Source: Gluconobacter vitians (GTDB lineage: Bacteria > Pseudomonadota > Alphaproteobacteria > Acetobacterales > Acetobacteraceae). From it: a stretch of DNA of 64,000 bases. Numbering within the stretch: the first letter of the stretch is position 1; every line of letters begins with the position of its first letter. The notes below the pieces were generated by a model that was given only the letters and a program-made list of their open reading frames with translations, did not search any database and had not been told where the DNA came from. Both the position numbers and the translations under genes were made by a program. Positions 54,652-59,823 of the stretch are shown here, piece by piece. The stretch is from NCBI RefSeq assembly GCF_015244565.1, contig NZ_JABCQG010000004.1, forward strand, positions 124,001-188,000. Reading direction: 5' to 3'.

Positions 54652-55263
54652 ATGACTGTCCAGCCAGAGCCCCGTCCAGAACCGAGCCCGCAGCCCCTGC
54701 CATCTGAACCCGCGTCCAGAAGCCGGGCGCTGTGGGGCGGAGGCGGGCTGATCGCGGCCCTGACGGTCGGGGCCGGTGCCTTTTTCTATACCCATAACAC
54801 GACCACACCACCTGCCCCGGCAATTGCCCCTCCGGCCCAGAACACCCCGGCCGTTCCTGCCGCGCAGACCGCCGCCGTCCAGCTGTCCATGCTCTCTCCC
54901 GCGAAGGCCCCTTCCGCCCTTGCCAAAAGCGGCTTCAGCCCGGCCGACCGCGCCCGCATCCTTGCGGCGATCAAAGATGGCAAGATGCGCCTGGTGGAAA
55001 TGCCGGTTCTGGACGCTTCCGGCGCTGTGGGGCAGACGATCGATGTCACGGTCTCGGGCCTGACGCAGCGTGTCATCCTGACGGGCAAGTTCCAGCATCT
55101 GGTTATTCCCATTGTTGAAGCCGGACAGATCCTGATTGCTCCCGTCAGTATGCCCCATGCACCGGCCCTGACCATCGGCGCGCTGACGGCACTTGGTCCG
55201 CAGGCCCTGCCCGCCCTGACGACGCTTGACCAGCGCGTCCTGCTTAACGTGATCGTCCAGTAA
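54652..55263 (+). CDS. Membrane-anchored protein of unknown function, first gene of AAA+ cassette
   Basis: The 203-residue protein has a Pro-rich basic N-terminus, a single membrane helix at about 27-46 (LWGGGGLIAALTVGAGAFFY), a Pro/Ala linker, and a conserved-looking domain at about 90-203 (SGFSPADRARILAAIKDGKM, then beta-rich). Positive charges before the helix predict the C-terminal domain outside the cytoplasm. I recognise no family. Its stop is 12 bases before the AAA+ ATPase start. Confidence 0.7.
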   Translation: MTVQPEPRPEPSPQPLPSEPASRSRALWGGGGLIAALTVGAGAFFYTHNTTTPPAPAIAPPAQNTPAVPAAQTAAVQLSMLSPAKAPSALAKSGFSPADRARILAAIKDGKMRLVEMPVLDASGAVGQTIDVTVSGLTQRVILTGKFQHLVIPIVEAGQILIAPVSMPHAPALTIGALTALGPQALPALTTLDQRVLLNVIVQ

Positions 55264-55275
55264 GGAACCGCCCCG

Positions 55276-56550
55276 GTGTTCAAGTCCCTCGTTCCCATGC
55301 TCAACCGGGCCATGCCGCTGATGATGGCGGCCTTCCTCATTCTGGCAGTGATTCAGGTTGCGGTCATGCTACACCTGTCGCTGAACGGGCTGTGGGCCGC
55401 CATCGAATGGGGACGGCGTTTCTATCTTCCGCTGGCAGGCATCAGCGCCCTTCTGGCAGTCACGGGACTGGCGTATGAAACGTCAGCCGAAAAACTGGCG
55501 CGTCGCGGACTGCGCCGCAGGAAAGGTCTCATCATGGATGTTCTCAGCCGTCTGACAAACCGCGGAGCCCTTGAAGAGCTCATGGCCCGCGAACAGCGTG
55601 AAACCGTCATCGACGCCGACGAACTGGCCGCTTCCCTCCGCGCCCGCGTCATCGGACAGGACCAGGTTTGCGAGGACATCGCCCAGCAGATGCGCCGTCG
55701 CCTGGCCCTGCAGGTCCGCGGCAAGCCTGTCGGCATCTTCCTGCTCGCCGGCCCTCCGGGCACCGGCAAGACCTATCTGGCCAAGCAGATGGCCAAGCAG
55801 ATGGAACGCCCGCTGCTGCATTTCGACATGACACAGATGTCCAGCGCTCATGCCGCGACCCAGCTTTTCGGCTCCCCCAAGGGTTATGTGGGGTCCGATA
55901 CCTTCGGCAAACTGACAGGTGGCCTCAAGGACAAGCCGGATGCCGTGGTCCTGCTCGATGAAATCGAAAAGGCCCATCCAGACGTCTTCAAGAAGTTCCT
56001 CACCGCTTGGAACGACGGTCACGTCACCGAAGCCTCCACGGGGGAACAGGTCTCCACGACCCGCGCGATCTTCATGCTGACGTCCAATGTCGCGACCGAA
56101 GCCCTGACCGAAATCGCCGACCGCCTCGTCAACGAGCCCGAAAAGATGCGCGCCGAGTCGGTCGAAGCCCTGCGCAAGTCCGGCTTCGCGCCCGAAGTTC
56201 TCAACCGTCTGGACCGCATTTTCATCTTCCGCCCCCTGCGTGGACTGGACCTCGCCCGCGTTGCAGCTCTCGAAATCGAAGCCATGATCGAAGGCTACGG
56301 CCTGCATGTGGAAACAGGCGGTATCGATGCCGGTGTCCTGTTTCAGGTCATGGTCAAACAGAAGAACCTCGGTACCGGGGCCAGCGCGCGTGATCTTGTC
56401 CGCTCCATTGAGGACATGGTCAGCGAAAGCCTCATCGTGGCCCGTCAGCAGGGTGCCAAGCGCGTCCGGCTCGTTACGCAGGAGGACGGCACCGTTATCA
56501 CCGAAATCGCAAACGACACCGAAACCCAGCTCGGCCGGATGAGCCACTGA
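55276..56550 (+). CDS. Membrane-anchored AAA+ ATPase of the ClpA/ClpB-D2 type
   Basis: The 424-residue protein has two N-terminal membrane helices (about 12-32 and 49-67), then a single AAA+ module of the HCLR/Clp-D2 type (about 118-400). Visible parts are VIGQDQVCEDIAQQM (start of the module), Walker A GPPGTGKT (159-166), pore loop KGYVG (202-206), Walker B VVLLDE (224-229), sensor 1 TSN (269-271), Arg finger in NRLDR (310-314) and sensor 2 GASARDL (about 368-374). No N-domain, D1 ring, coiled-coil M-domain or IGF/IGL ClpP-binding loop is seen. It should be an ATP-driven unfoldase or remodeller at the inner membrane, facing the cytoplasm. The start is a GTG; its neighbours are both anchored proteins. 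Confidence 0.85.
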   Translation: MFKSLVPMLNRAMPLMMAAFLILAVIQVAVMLHLSLNGLWAAIEWGRRFYLPLAGISALLAVTGLAYETSAEKLARRGLRRRKGLIMDVLSRLTNRGALEELMAREQRETVIDADELAASLRARVIGQDQVCEDIAQQMRRRLALQVRGKPVGIFLLAGPPGTGKTYLAKQMAKQMERPLLHFDMTQMSSAHAATQLFGSPKGYVGSDTFGKLTGGLKDKPDAVVLLDEIEKAHPDVFKKFLTAWNDGHVTEASTGEQVSTTRAIFMLTSNVATEALTEIADRLVNEPEKMRAESVEALRKSGFAPEVLNRLDRIFIFRPLRGLDLARVAALEIEAMIEGYGLHVETGGIDAGVLFQVMVKQKNLGTGASARDLVRSIEDMVSESLIVARQQGAKRVRLVTQEDGTVITEIANDTETQLGRMSH

Positions 56551-56553
56551 CCC

Positions 56554-57483
56554 ATGACGGCATTCGGACGGCTCTGGCGGCGCGCGCCCCTGTGGCGCAC
56601 AAGCGTGATCGTAACGGTAGGCGCGCTGGGCATGGCCGCCTTCTATCCCACTCCGGCACTCAAGAAAGCCATGCCATGGCTGCCGGGGCACCTGCCCGGC
56701 GCAGCGCCAGCAGCCGGACAGCAGGCCGACCAGACTGCTGCCGGACCCGGCGGCGCACCCGGAGCAGGAGACCAGATCGGCGTCCCTGATCCCGGCATCG
56801 CGCAGCACGGAAGCATCATGATCGCCGGACGCACCCTCCCGCTTCCGGCCGGTGACTGGCACCCGATCCTGACTGCCCGGAGCGGCGCTCATGGTGAACT
56901 GTCCCAGCAGATTCTGGCCCGCACCGATCGTGGCGTCGTCTCCGGCGTCATCGTGGTGCGTGCCACGCAGCAGCCCGTCCCGGCCGAACTCGCCGAACAG
57001 CTCGAAACACCGTGCCATGACGACCGCGACTATGCGGCTCATATTTCCGAACAGCCCGGGGTTTCGCAGGAATGCAGCTACACCAGCAATGCCGTCCTCG
57101 AAAACCAGAGCGTCAGCACCGATCCGTTCATCACGGCCGCATTTTCCCGGATGCGCACGCTCGGCTTCCCGATCCCGAGCCTAATGATCAATGTTGGGTG
57201 GTATCATGCGGCCGTGGCCGGCAAGAACACCGCCCATATCGAAACGGTGGAAACGCTCGTCGCCCCGATCGAACATGGCTCACGCCAGTTGCTCGCCCCG
57301 CCGCAATACTGGAACAAGGCTTCGGTTCACAAGAACCCGGACGCCGCCCAGTTCATCGACACGCTTGACCGCTGGATGATCGGCTGGTCCCGCGTCCTGC
57401 GTCAGGGATTTGACGGCACGCTGGACACGGCAACGCTCGTCCCGCCCCTGATCAACGACCCCTCCGCTCCCCGTCCGGCCTGA
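56554..57483 (+). CDS. Membrane-anchored protein of unknown function, third gene of AAA+ cassette
   Basis: The 309-residue protein has one N-terminal membrane helix at about 16-32 after basic residues, a Gly/Pro/Ala/Gln-rich linker (about 45-80), then a folded domain (about 85-300). Two cysteines (in TPCHDDRDYAAHI and SQECSY) could form a disulfide if the domain is periplasmic, as the charge pattern predicts. Other segments: INVGWYHAAVAGKNTAHIET and DTLDRWMIGWSRVL. I recognise no family. It starts three bases after the ATPase stop. Confidence 0.7.
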   Translation: MTAFGRLWRRAPLWRTSVIVTVGALGMAAFYPTPALKKAMPWLPGHLPGAAPAAGQQADQTAAGPGGAPGAGDQIGVPDPGIAQHGSIMIAGRTLPLPAGDWHPILTARSGAHGELSQQILARTDRGVVSGVIVVRATQQPVPAELAEQLETPCHDDRDYAAHISEQPGVSQECSYTSNAVLENQSVSTDPFITAAFSRMRTLGFPIPSLMINVGWYHAAVAGKNTAHIETVETLVAPIEHGSRQLLAPPQYWNKASVHKNPDAAQFIDTLDRWMIGWSRVLRQGFDGTLDTATLVPPLINDPSAPRPA

Positions 57484-57502: not shown

Positions 57503-59032
57503 TCAGTGATGCCCGGTTCCTGAAAACCCACGGCCCAGCCGCCGCTCCGCCATCCGCGCCAACCGCACAAACGGCAGCCCGAGCAGCAGATAGGCCAGAC
57601 CGACCATGATCCCCGTTCCGAAATAATCGTAATATGTAGACGACAGCCGCACATAGGTCTGGCTCAGCTCCGTCAGTGTAATGACGGAGACGAGCGAACT
57701 GTCCTTGAGCAGCGAAATAAAGTCATTGGTCATGACCGGCACAACCGTCCGGAACGCCTGTGGCACGATCACCAGCCGCAGCGCCTGCCAGTGCGTCATG
57801 TTCAGCGCAATCGCCGCTTCCATCTGCCCCCGTGGCACGGAGAGCAGGCCGGCGCGGTAGTTTTCCGCCTCATAGGCCGCGTAATTCAGGCCCAGCGACA
57901 GCACACCCGCCATGAACGGCGACAGACGGATGCCGAAAGCCGGCAGTCCATAGAAGATAAACAGCACCTGAATCAGCAGCGGTGTACCGCGCACCACTTC
58001 GACATACACGCCCGCCACGAAACGCAGCGGCGCTGCGCCGTAATGCCGGGCCAGCGCCAGCAAAAGCCCGAGTGCCACGGCCAGAACCATAGCCAGCGCC
58101 GACACCGCCAGCGTCATGAGCGCCGCCTGCCCAATCAGCGGCAGGAAACTCACATAGCGCCGGACCAGAACATGCCAGCCGCTGCCGGTCGTGTTCGCCA
58201 TGGCCTGCCGGTAATGGTCCCATTCCGTCGGCGCGATATCCGGCTGGCTGTTGTCGCCCGTGTAGTTCGCCATCAGGGGCGTCCACAGGTTCCAGCGCGC
58301 CAGAATGCGGTGCAATGTCCCGTCCTGAATGATTTCGCCCAGCGCCGCATCTACCTGATCACGCAGCGCACGGTTCTCCGGTGAGAACGCGATCCCGTAT
58401 TCCATGCTGCCGATCGGCTCGCCCACGAGCTTCATGTCCGGCGAGATGCTGCCATAATACAGGGCAATCGGCGCATCGAGCAGGATCGCATCCAGCCGCC
58501 CGTTCCGCAGATCCGAGAACGCATTCGTCTCTTCTTCATAAGAGCGCACGTTAGAGCCGCCCTGCCTGCGCAGCATCCGCTCGGCCGTGGTGTCCTTGAT
58601 CGTCCCGACCGTATGCCCCTTGAGGGCGTCCATCGTATCCAGACCGCTCTGGTCATGCCGGACGATGATGCGCTCGCTCGTCACATAATAGGGGCGCGAG
58701 AACAGCACGGCGGCCTTGTGCTCCGGCGTCATCTCGATGCCGTCCAGCACCATCCCGTACAGTCCGCGTGACAGGCCGGGGATCAGGCCGTCCCAGTCAT
58801 TCTGGATGAACTTCGCCTTCCGGTGCATCCGTGCGGCGATCTCGTTGACCAGTTCGTACTCGAAGCCGGTCATTTGGGATTCATGGGCCGGGTCGTGGAA
58901 GACGTAAGGCACATTCGCCTCACCGTCCGACGCCCAGAGCAGCTCCTGCGATGCAGCGGGCGCGTCTGCCAGCGCGATGGAAACGGGGCTGATGGCAAGC
59001 GCTAGCAGAAGTACGAAAAGTTTTTTCATCAC
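57503..59032 (-). CDS. Polar amino-acid ABC transporter: fused substrate-binding protein and permease
   Basis: The 509-residue protein has a signal sequence (about 1-22), a family-3 solute-binding domain (about 30-250; GFEYELVNEIAARM, LDGIEMTPEHKAAVLFSRPYY) and a HisM/GlnP-type permease domain (about 285-500) with four or five membrane segments. The permease EAA loop is GQMEAAIALNMTHWQALRLV. The binding protein is thus tethered to the translocator. The ATPase gene lies immediately upstream and overlaps by four bases. Substrate: an amino acid or similar cation, not identifiable here. Confidence 0.9.
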   Translation of the reverse strand: MMKKLFVLLLALAISPVSIALADAPAASQELLWASDGEANVPYVFHDPAHESQMTGFEYELVNEIAARMHRKAKFIQNDWDGLIPGLSRGLYGMVLDGIEMTPEHKAAVLFSRPYYVTSERIIVRHDQSGLDTMDALKGHTVGTIKDTTAERMLRRQGGSNVRSYEEETNAFSDLRNGRLDAILLDAPIALYYGSISPDMKLVGEPIGSMEYGIAFSPENRALRDQVDAALGEIIQDGTLHRILARWNLWTPLMANYTGDNSQPDIAPTEWDHYRQAMANTTGSGWHVLVRRYVSFLPLIGQAALMTLAVSALAMVLAVALGLLLALARHYGAAPLRFVAGVYVEVVRGTPLLIQVLFIFYGLPAFGIRLSPFMAGVLSLGLNYAAYEAENYRAGLLSVPRGQMEAAIALNMTHWQALRLVIVPQAFRTVVPVMTNDFISLLKDSSLVSVITLTELSQTYVRLSSTYYDYFGTGIMVGLAYLLLGLPFVRLARMAERRLGRGFSGTGHH

Positions 59033-59823
59033 AGCAGCGTCCGCAGGAACCGGCGCGTCCGTCCCTCCTGGGGGTTGGCGAACATCAGGTCCGGATCACC
59101 GCTCTCAACGATTTCCCCGCCCTCGACAAACAGAACACGATCCGAGGCCGCGCGCGCGAAACGCATGTCATGCGTCACGACTAACTGCGTCATGCCCTCA
59201 TCATCCAGCGCACGCATGACGGACAGCACTTCCTCGGAGAGTTCGGGGTCCAGCGCGGATGTCGGTTCATCATACAGCATCACGGACGGCTTCATCGCCA
59301 GAGCGCGCGCAATGGCGGCGCGCTGTTTTTGACCGCCCGAAAGACTGTCCGGATACCGGTCCTTCACACCTGCAAGCCCGACCTTCGCCAGAAGTTCGCA
59401 GGCAATGGACTGAGCCTCGTCACGCGACATTTTCTTGACCTGGATCGGCGCCATCATGACGTTGTCCAGCACCGTGCGATGGGGGAACAGGTTGAAGGCC
59501 TGAAACACCATGCCGACATGCGACCGCAGCTTATGGGCCTCGGCCTCGTTGGCGCGGCTCCAGTGCTTCCCCGTGCACGCGACCGTCACATCCTCGATCC
59601 GGACAGAGCCCGCATCCGGATGTTCCAGAAAATTGAGGCAGCGCAGAAACGTGGACTTGCCACATCCCGAAGGCCCGATCATCGAGATCAGTTCGCCGCG
59701 CTCCACGTCGAGCGACAGGCCCTTCAGAACCTCGTTCCCACCAAAGGACTTGGCGATACCACTCGCCTGCAGCACCAGATCAGCCAGTTCCGGAAACCCT
59801 CGAAAAAAGAGACGCACGATCAC
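59029..59823 (-). CDS. Polar amino-acid ABC transporter ATPase
   Basis: This is an ABC ATPase of 264 residues with Walker A GPSGCGKS, Q-loop MVFQAFNLFPHRT, signature LSGGQKQR, Walker B VMLYDEPTSALDPEL and the H-loop VVTHDMRFA. This is the GlnQ/HisP subtype that partners with the fused permease. The assigned start is a GTG at 59823 without a strong ribosome site; a later GTG (VLQASGIAKSF) could be the true start. Divergent from ccmA. Confidence 0.9.
   Translation of the reverse strand: MIVRLFFRGFPELADLVLQASGIAKSFGGNEVLKGLSLDVERGELISMIGPSGCGKSTFLRCLNFLEHPDAGSVRIEDVTVACTGKHWSRANEAEAHKLRSHVGMVFQAFNLFPHRTVLDNVMMAPIQVKKMSRDEAQSIACELLAKVGLAGVKDRYPDSLSGGQKQRAAIARALAMKPSVMLYDEPTSALDPELSEEVLSVMRALDDEGMTQLVVTHDMRFARAASDRVLFVEGGEIVESGDPDLMFANPQEGRTRRFLRTLL

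Follow-up and report, generated by a model that had tools for sequence, protein, structure and literature searches.

HSP100 rings are known mainly as soluble two-ring unfoldases, and the locus described here raises the question of what a one-module relative, predicted to be tied to the membrane, might act on. Within the window (the whole stretch of DNA analysed, 64,000 nucleotides from contig C4 of a 3.16 Mb genome), three plus-strand open reading frames (ORFs) encoding P1, P2 and P3 lie 12 and 3 bases apart (Table 1). The original prediction saw in them a tightly spaced three-gene cassette with a Clp-D2-like ATPase in the middle and unrecognised proteins on either side. The ORF coordinates confirm this arrangement, and neither P1 nor P3 matches a Pfam or NCBIfam family at an E-value of 1. 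Beyond P3, on the minus strand (57503-59032), one polypeptide combines the solute-binding domain and the permease of an amino-acid type ABC transporter, and the gene for its ATPase follows at 59029-59823.

Table 1. Positions of the three genes and of their features in the window
Feature	Position	Strand	Description or basis
P1 (203 aa)	54652..55263	+	ORF; C-terminal beta domain joined by a Pro/Ala linker to a weakly hydrophobic segment and N-tail
P1 candidate membrane segment, residues 27-45	54730..54786	+	hydropathy 1.52, marginal; no helix in model
P1 folded beta-rich domain, residues 71-203	54862..55260	+	AlphaFold model, blocks from residue 71 at pLDDT 77-96
P2 (424 aa)	55276..56550	+	ORF; predicted membrane-anchored single Clp-D2 AAA+ ATPase
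P2 hydrophobic stretch 1, residues 5-43	55288..55404	+	hydropathy peak 2.49
P2 hydrophobic stretch 2, residues 49-67	55420..55476	+	hydropathy peak 1.64
P2 AAA+ alpha/beta core, residues 120-308	55633..56199	+	alignment to ClpA/ClpB D2; conservation
P2 Walker A, residues 159-166	55750..55773	+	motif, conserved in homologues
P2 aromatic pore loop GYVGSD, residues 203-208	55882..55899	+	motif, conserved in homologues
P2 Walker B LLDEIEK, residues 226-232	55951..55971	+	alignment and conservation
P3 (309 aa)	56554..57483	+	ORF; conserved N-tail, one membrane helix, then a disordered linker to a predicted periplasmic domain (candidate Mog1/PsbP-like fold)
P3 N-tail motif RLWRRAPLWR, residues 6-15	56569..56598	+	conservation; also beside Microvirga P2
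P3 folded domain, residues 74-300	56773..57453	+	structure model; invariant Cys154, Cys174

The ATPase and its two partners

P2 matches Pfam AAA_2 with 128.9 bits, and its best NCBIfam match is ClpB, to which residues 86-399 align over positions 533-843 of the 853 in the profile (TIGR03346), i.e. over D2 only. With the HSP100 proteins ClpB and ClpA it shares all D2 catalytic motifs, the GYVG pore loop and the LNR Arg finger, and is 33-42% identical to five Clp ORFs over 223-332 residues. The window P2 and all 80 named homologues keep K165 and T166 (Walker A), Y204 (pore), D228 and E229 (Walker B), N271 (sensor 1), R311 (Arg finger) and R372 (sensor 2). In contrast to ClpB and ClpA, P2 has two N-terminal hydrophobic stretches and two dedicated partners; no N-domain, D1 or M-domain was found in it, and its alignment to ClpA of the same genome has no counterpart to the stretch holding the IGF motif, which we take to be the ClpP loop. 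In 78 of 81 P2 sequences the AAA core comes after at least two hydrophobic stretches (cut 1.4). The two membrane helices, the single D2 module with a full motif set and the lack of N-domain, D1 ring and ClpP-binding loop had all been predicted from the window, and each is upheld by these comparisons. The other P2 matches within its own genome are ORFs of 871, 793 and 854 aa, and the window P2 shares 99% identity with its counterpart in Gluconobacter roseus NBRC 3990.

Membership of a well-studied family was considered case by case. The Walker A and B motifs, GYVG pore loop, sensors and Arg finger place P2 in the HSP100 D2 class of AAA+ proteins. The scores reject a ClpB disaggregase (172.3 bits against a cutoff of 1232.1, D2 only) and ClpV/TssH of type VI secretion (148.9 against 884.95, D2 only), and the absence of an IGF/IGL loop from the alignment rejects a ClpP-partner unfoldase (ClpA/C/X). 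FtsH is a membrane-anchored AAA+ protein with two N-terminal helices, an anchoring also predicted for P2, which reaches just 18.1 bits where the family cutoff is 600 and has no M41 zinc protease or other protease domain among the 25 of 40 Pfam matches listed. A PspF-like protein was rejected by the NCBIfam comparison and a Torsin by a Pfam score of 25.6 bits, narrowly below the cutoff of 27, together with the presence of the pore loop. PADLOC gave partial AAA matches only (best PDC-M37B, 1.1e-24 over residues 113-279) and none to P1 or P3, which rejects a known anti-phage defence system. P2 thus falls outside the FtsH, ClpV and PspF-type families, as had been anticipated, and on these tests it forms a new HSP100 D2 branch, distinct from ClpB, ClpA, ClpV, FtsH and Torsin. 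A literature search found no paper describing a P1-P2-P3 system, most subscription papers lying outside the searched library.

P1 is modelled as a plain beta sandwich that is not AAA-like and is closed by an invariant C-terminal Gln; PHROGs gave it a single weak match (E 0.013). Each flanking protein had been assigned one N-terminal membrane helix. This held for P3, whose hydropathy peaks at residues 18-36 and which has a hydrophobic stretch above 1.5 near the N-end in 29 of 38 sequences. For P1 the evidence is weak: the AlphaFold model has no helix at residues 27-45, and hydropathy there is slightly exceeded by that of residues 149-168 (1.62), inside the folded domain. A stretch above 1.5 occurs near the N-end in 25 of 33 P1 sequences, and frames often open far upstream, leaving start sites uncertain in those loci. 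The P1 helix is the least secure part of the first observation. At two loci (L137 6297-6835, in genome G101, and L073) P1 is split over two overlapping frames next to an intact P2.

The P3 model has an overall pLDDT of 86.8, and its folded domain is a candidate fold match to Mog1/PsbP-like proteins (PsbP, DcrB, LpqN, Tsi3). In the N-tail, L7, W8, A11, P12, W14 and R15 are invariant across 38 sequences. In L133 (G126), L157 (G220) and G181:C1 P2 is intact, yet P3 is interrupted or spread over more than one frame; either P3 is dispensable there or these are assembly errors.

Distribution of the trio

A scan for P2 with one genome per species returned 116 relatives, of which the best 80 were kept. 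All 80 loci are in Acetobacteraceae genera, which we take to be acetic acid bacteria. P1 adjoins P2 in every one of them, and P3 lies beside P2 in every one as well, with 79 closed ORFs and one frame that leaves the contig end (L121). The genes share one strand throughout; P1 and P2 are at most 14 bases apart or overlap in 73/80 loci (starts set from the alignment), and P2-P3 spacing is 3-157 bases in the 79 loci with a closed P3 ORF. The cassette lies by rimP-nusA and an ABC transporter, and by different genes in the basal genomes inspected.

Genome-wide searches gave the same picture. Among 150 genomes of the family, P3 was found in 38, P1 in 34 and P2 (1e-60) in 34; after removal of three P1 matches with E ~0.001 and three decayed P2, the identical 31 genomes carry P1 and P2. 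Among 250 genomes of the order, P3 was found in 122, P2 (1e-55) in 115 and P1 in 111, and the identical 110 carry P1 and a P2 above 540 bits (lists compared by eye). The remaining P1 match (G151) is weak, at 5e-4, in a genome without P2, and one genome (G169) has an intact, divergent P2 (387 bits) and a divergent P1 overlooked by the order-wide P1 search. P3 accompanies all 115 P2 of the order. Seven P3 matches lack a P2 at 1e-55: G070 has a decayed P2, in G049 P3 sits at a contig start, G156 is weak, in G063 the domain lies behind another domain, and G176, G295 and G297 are other proteins carrying the domain. In G063 (L129 3671-5053) the domain ahead of the P3-like one has no Pfam match and is, we presume, ClpP-like. 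Several small genomes of the family (1.7-2.5 Mb; G155, G040, G122, G150-G153 and G066) lack any trio gene, the exception being the weak P1 in G151.

Searches of 277 other genomes of the class, where only three ClpB-length ORFs matched at 1e-44, and of 199 other genomes of the phylum (1e-60) turned up no P2-type gene. Only one of 72,556 plasmid records, Microvirga sp. VF16 pMVF16-3, covers at least 80% of P2, with 43% identity over 92% and all motifs intact. The annotated protein upstream of this homologue matches neither P1 nor P3, and a six-frame HMM search found no P1 in the 25 kb stretch. Ten bases after it lies an unannotated 64-codon ORF (L174 13220-13411) with an RLWxxAxxWR motif and a hydrophobic stretch, without the P3 domain; it scores 25.6 bits, whereas none of 300 shuffles exceeded 4.1, and may represent either a genuine small protein or a truncated gene. 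Judging from this stub, what stays constant is probably the link of P2 with the P3 N-tail and membrane helix. The P3 domain without P2 occurs in 9 of 288 other genomes of the class, several of these matches being weak, and such proteins often start with a signal-like segment (by eye). In L146 (551-3642) such a gene has a FecR-domain gene on one side and a ShlB-type two-partner secretion gene on the other; in L150, judged on the start of the sequence only, one lies beside a ShlB-type gene.

The proposal that the three genes co-occur in Acetobacteraceae therefore passed its check. Because co-occurrence is near absolute, the reading of the trio as one functional unit in the family is well supported by these gene counts. 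The original prediction as a whole is partly supported: one envelope complex whose cytoplasmic motor acts on or through the membrane would be a further step, and the parts are separable, as seen in Microvirga, in P3 domains elsewhere and in decayed P2.

Decayed motors in genomes that have lost P1

Seven genomes (G234, G257, G203, G116, G061, G136 and G070) carry a P2 that has retained an open frame beside P3, and none of the seven keeps the complete set of K165, T166, Y204, D228, E229, N271 and R311. K165 is kept and D228 or E229 is changed in all seven; Y204 is lost in 6/7, N271 in 6/7 and R311 in 4/7, and decay is mildest in G234 and G257. P1 is absent both beside the decayed P2 and genome-wide in all seven (all candidates scored, best E 0.047), none of them has a second P2, and all retain other Clp ORFs above 770 aa. 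P3 is present in 7/7, with the N-tail motif retained in the three aligned rows from these genomes, which are small (1.9-2.4 Mb). The split P1 of G101, a genome from the genus of G234 and G257, is possibly an intermediate or a sequencing error.

Compared with the window P2, the AAA core of five intact relatives is 80-87% identical and that of G169, distant but intact, 59%, whereas the decayed proteins reach 28-51%. For the N-terminal part it is 27-63% intact vs. 35-45% decayed, and for the lid 47-66% vs. 32-50%. A NusA tree of 40 rows places at least three changes to the decayed state on strong branches, four being the simplest count.

G234 and G257 are the one measurable decayed pair, G061/G136 being saturated. 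Their P2 has a dN/dS of 0.057 (core 0.039, from 5 non-synonymous and 37 synonymous changes), compared with 0.058 for P3 and 0.034 for nusA and rimP. Intact P2 cores have a median of 0.015 over 92 non-independent pairs with dS 0.15-0.45, 12% of which are at or above 0.039. On the basis of these values, the decayed P2 of G234/G257 is under constraint, less so than most intact P2. Decayed G203 against intact G190 gave 0.20, and the intact pair G046/G126 gave 0.246; in G126, perhaps an error-rich genome, P3 is broken and the N-end of P2 is odd. The joint loss would divide the trio into a motor branch (P1 and catalysis) and a platform branch (the P2 shell and P3).

A candidate inner-membrane machine and its rivals

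The reading that we tentatively favour, with somewhat less than even confidence, is that the trio encodes a single inner-membrane machine of Acetobacteraceae, with P2 as motor, P3 as standing partner and P1 as moving part or client. P2 would form a ring ATPase of the Clp-D2 type, anchored in the membrane through its two N-terminal helices, with a cytoplasmic pore. The cytoplasmic N-tail and membrane helix of P3 would dock on this P2 platform and display the putative Mog1/PsbP-like domain in the periplasm. The pore loops would grip a short unstructured cytoplasmic tail of P1 and pull, extracting P1 or transmitting force to its periplasmic domain. We infer ring formation, topology, physical contacts, threading of the P1 tail and the periplasmic roles; threading would be the simplest mechanism because the aromatic pore loop is intact. 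The intact motor motifs, the near-absolute co-occurrence, the joint loss of P1 and motor residues and the survival of P3 with the P2 shell all speak for the model. Since the Microvirga stub has the N-tail motif without the P3 domain, the N-end of P3 is probably tied to P2. The same plasmid shows that an intact motor is possible without P1, so that outside the family P1 is not needed for one; this weakens a client role for P1 about as much as the stub supports P2-P3 docking.

The joint loss could also reflect an obligatory activator. The main rival, though an unlikely one, makes P1 an activator or adaptor, as LAP1/LULL1 are for Torsin, with the motor acting on another substrate. Torsin resembles P2 in being a membrane-linked single Clp-clade AAA+ module with membrane-anchored partners: it is placed in the ClpA/B clade and works with membrane-anchored LULL1 (PMC4999309), and LAP1 is described as having an atypical AAA+ fold that lacks nucleotide-binding motifs (PMC4358337). 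Unlike LAP1, neither P1 nor P3 has an AAA-like model, and the P2 AAA domain is predicted to be cytoplasmic whereas the folded domain of P1 is predicted to be periplasmic. Torsins are lumenal and eukaryotic, and they lack the pore loop consensus (PMC4999309); its presence in P2 would lead one to expect threading.

A role of P2 as a general disaggregase or dislocase, bound to the membrane and serving many membrane proteins while P1 just travels along, is rather improbable. The D2 module is nearest to ClpB, ClpA and ClpE, and Microvirga has an intact P2 without P1; however, a quality-control ATPase should keep its motor after P1 loss, and co-occurrence within the family is near absolute. We hold it no more probable that the decayed loci mark a pathway on its way out in small genomes, in which case co-loss would be uninformative on function. 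The size of these genomes fits, and so does the finding that none of the three genes is present in G155, of 1.7 Mb, or in the listed g41 genomes (apart from the weak P1 in G151). Against this, all seven frames are open, dN/dS in G234/G257 is 0.057 against 0.034 for nusA and rimP, and separate lineages reach one end state, with P1 and motor gone and P3 kept. A Bcs1- or secretion-like motor that carries polymers or folded proteins through the membrane would suit an anchored ATPase whose two partners, as receptors, have predicted periplasmic domains, but it is very improbable, no cargo gene being evident among the neighbours in either setting.

Returning to the inner-membrane machine with P1 as client, its fullest form is more doubtful than the model as a whole: a so far undescribed machine of the envelope, whose HSP100 D2 motor, relocated to the membrane, would pull P1 from a P2-P3 platform, and in which repeated loss of the client would have left a conserved pseudo-ATPase with a structural role beside P3. 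A membrane-tied, D2-only HSP100 protein with fixed partners across acetic acid bacteria would give this class of motor a place in the cell envelope. That P1 and the catalytic residues have been lost together more than once amounts to a natural experiment; it points to the client or activator of the motor and makes the choice between these two roles testable in Gluconobacter.
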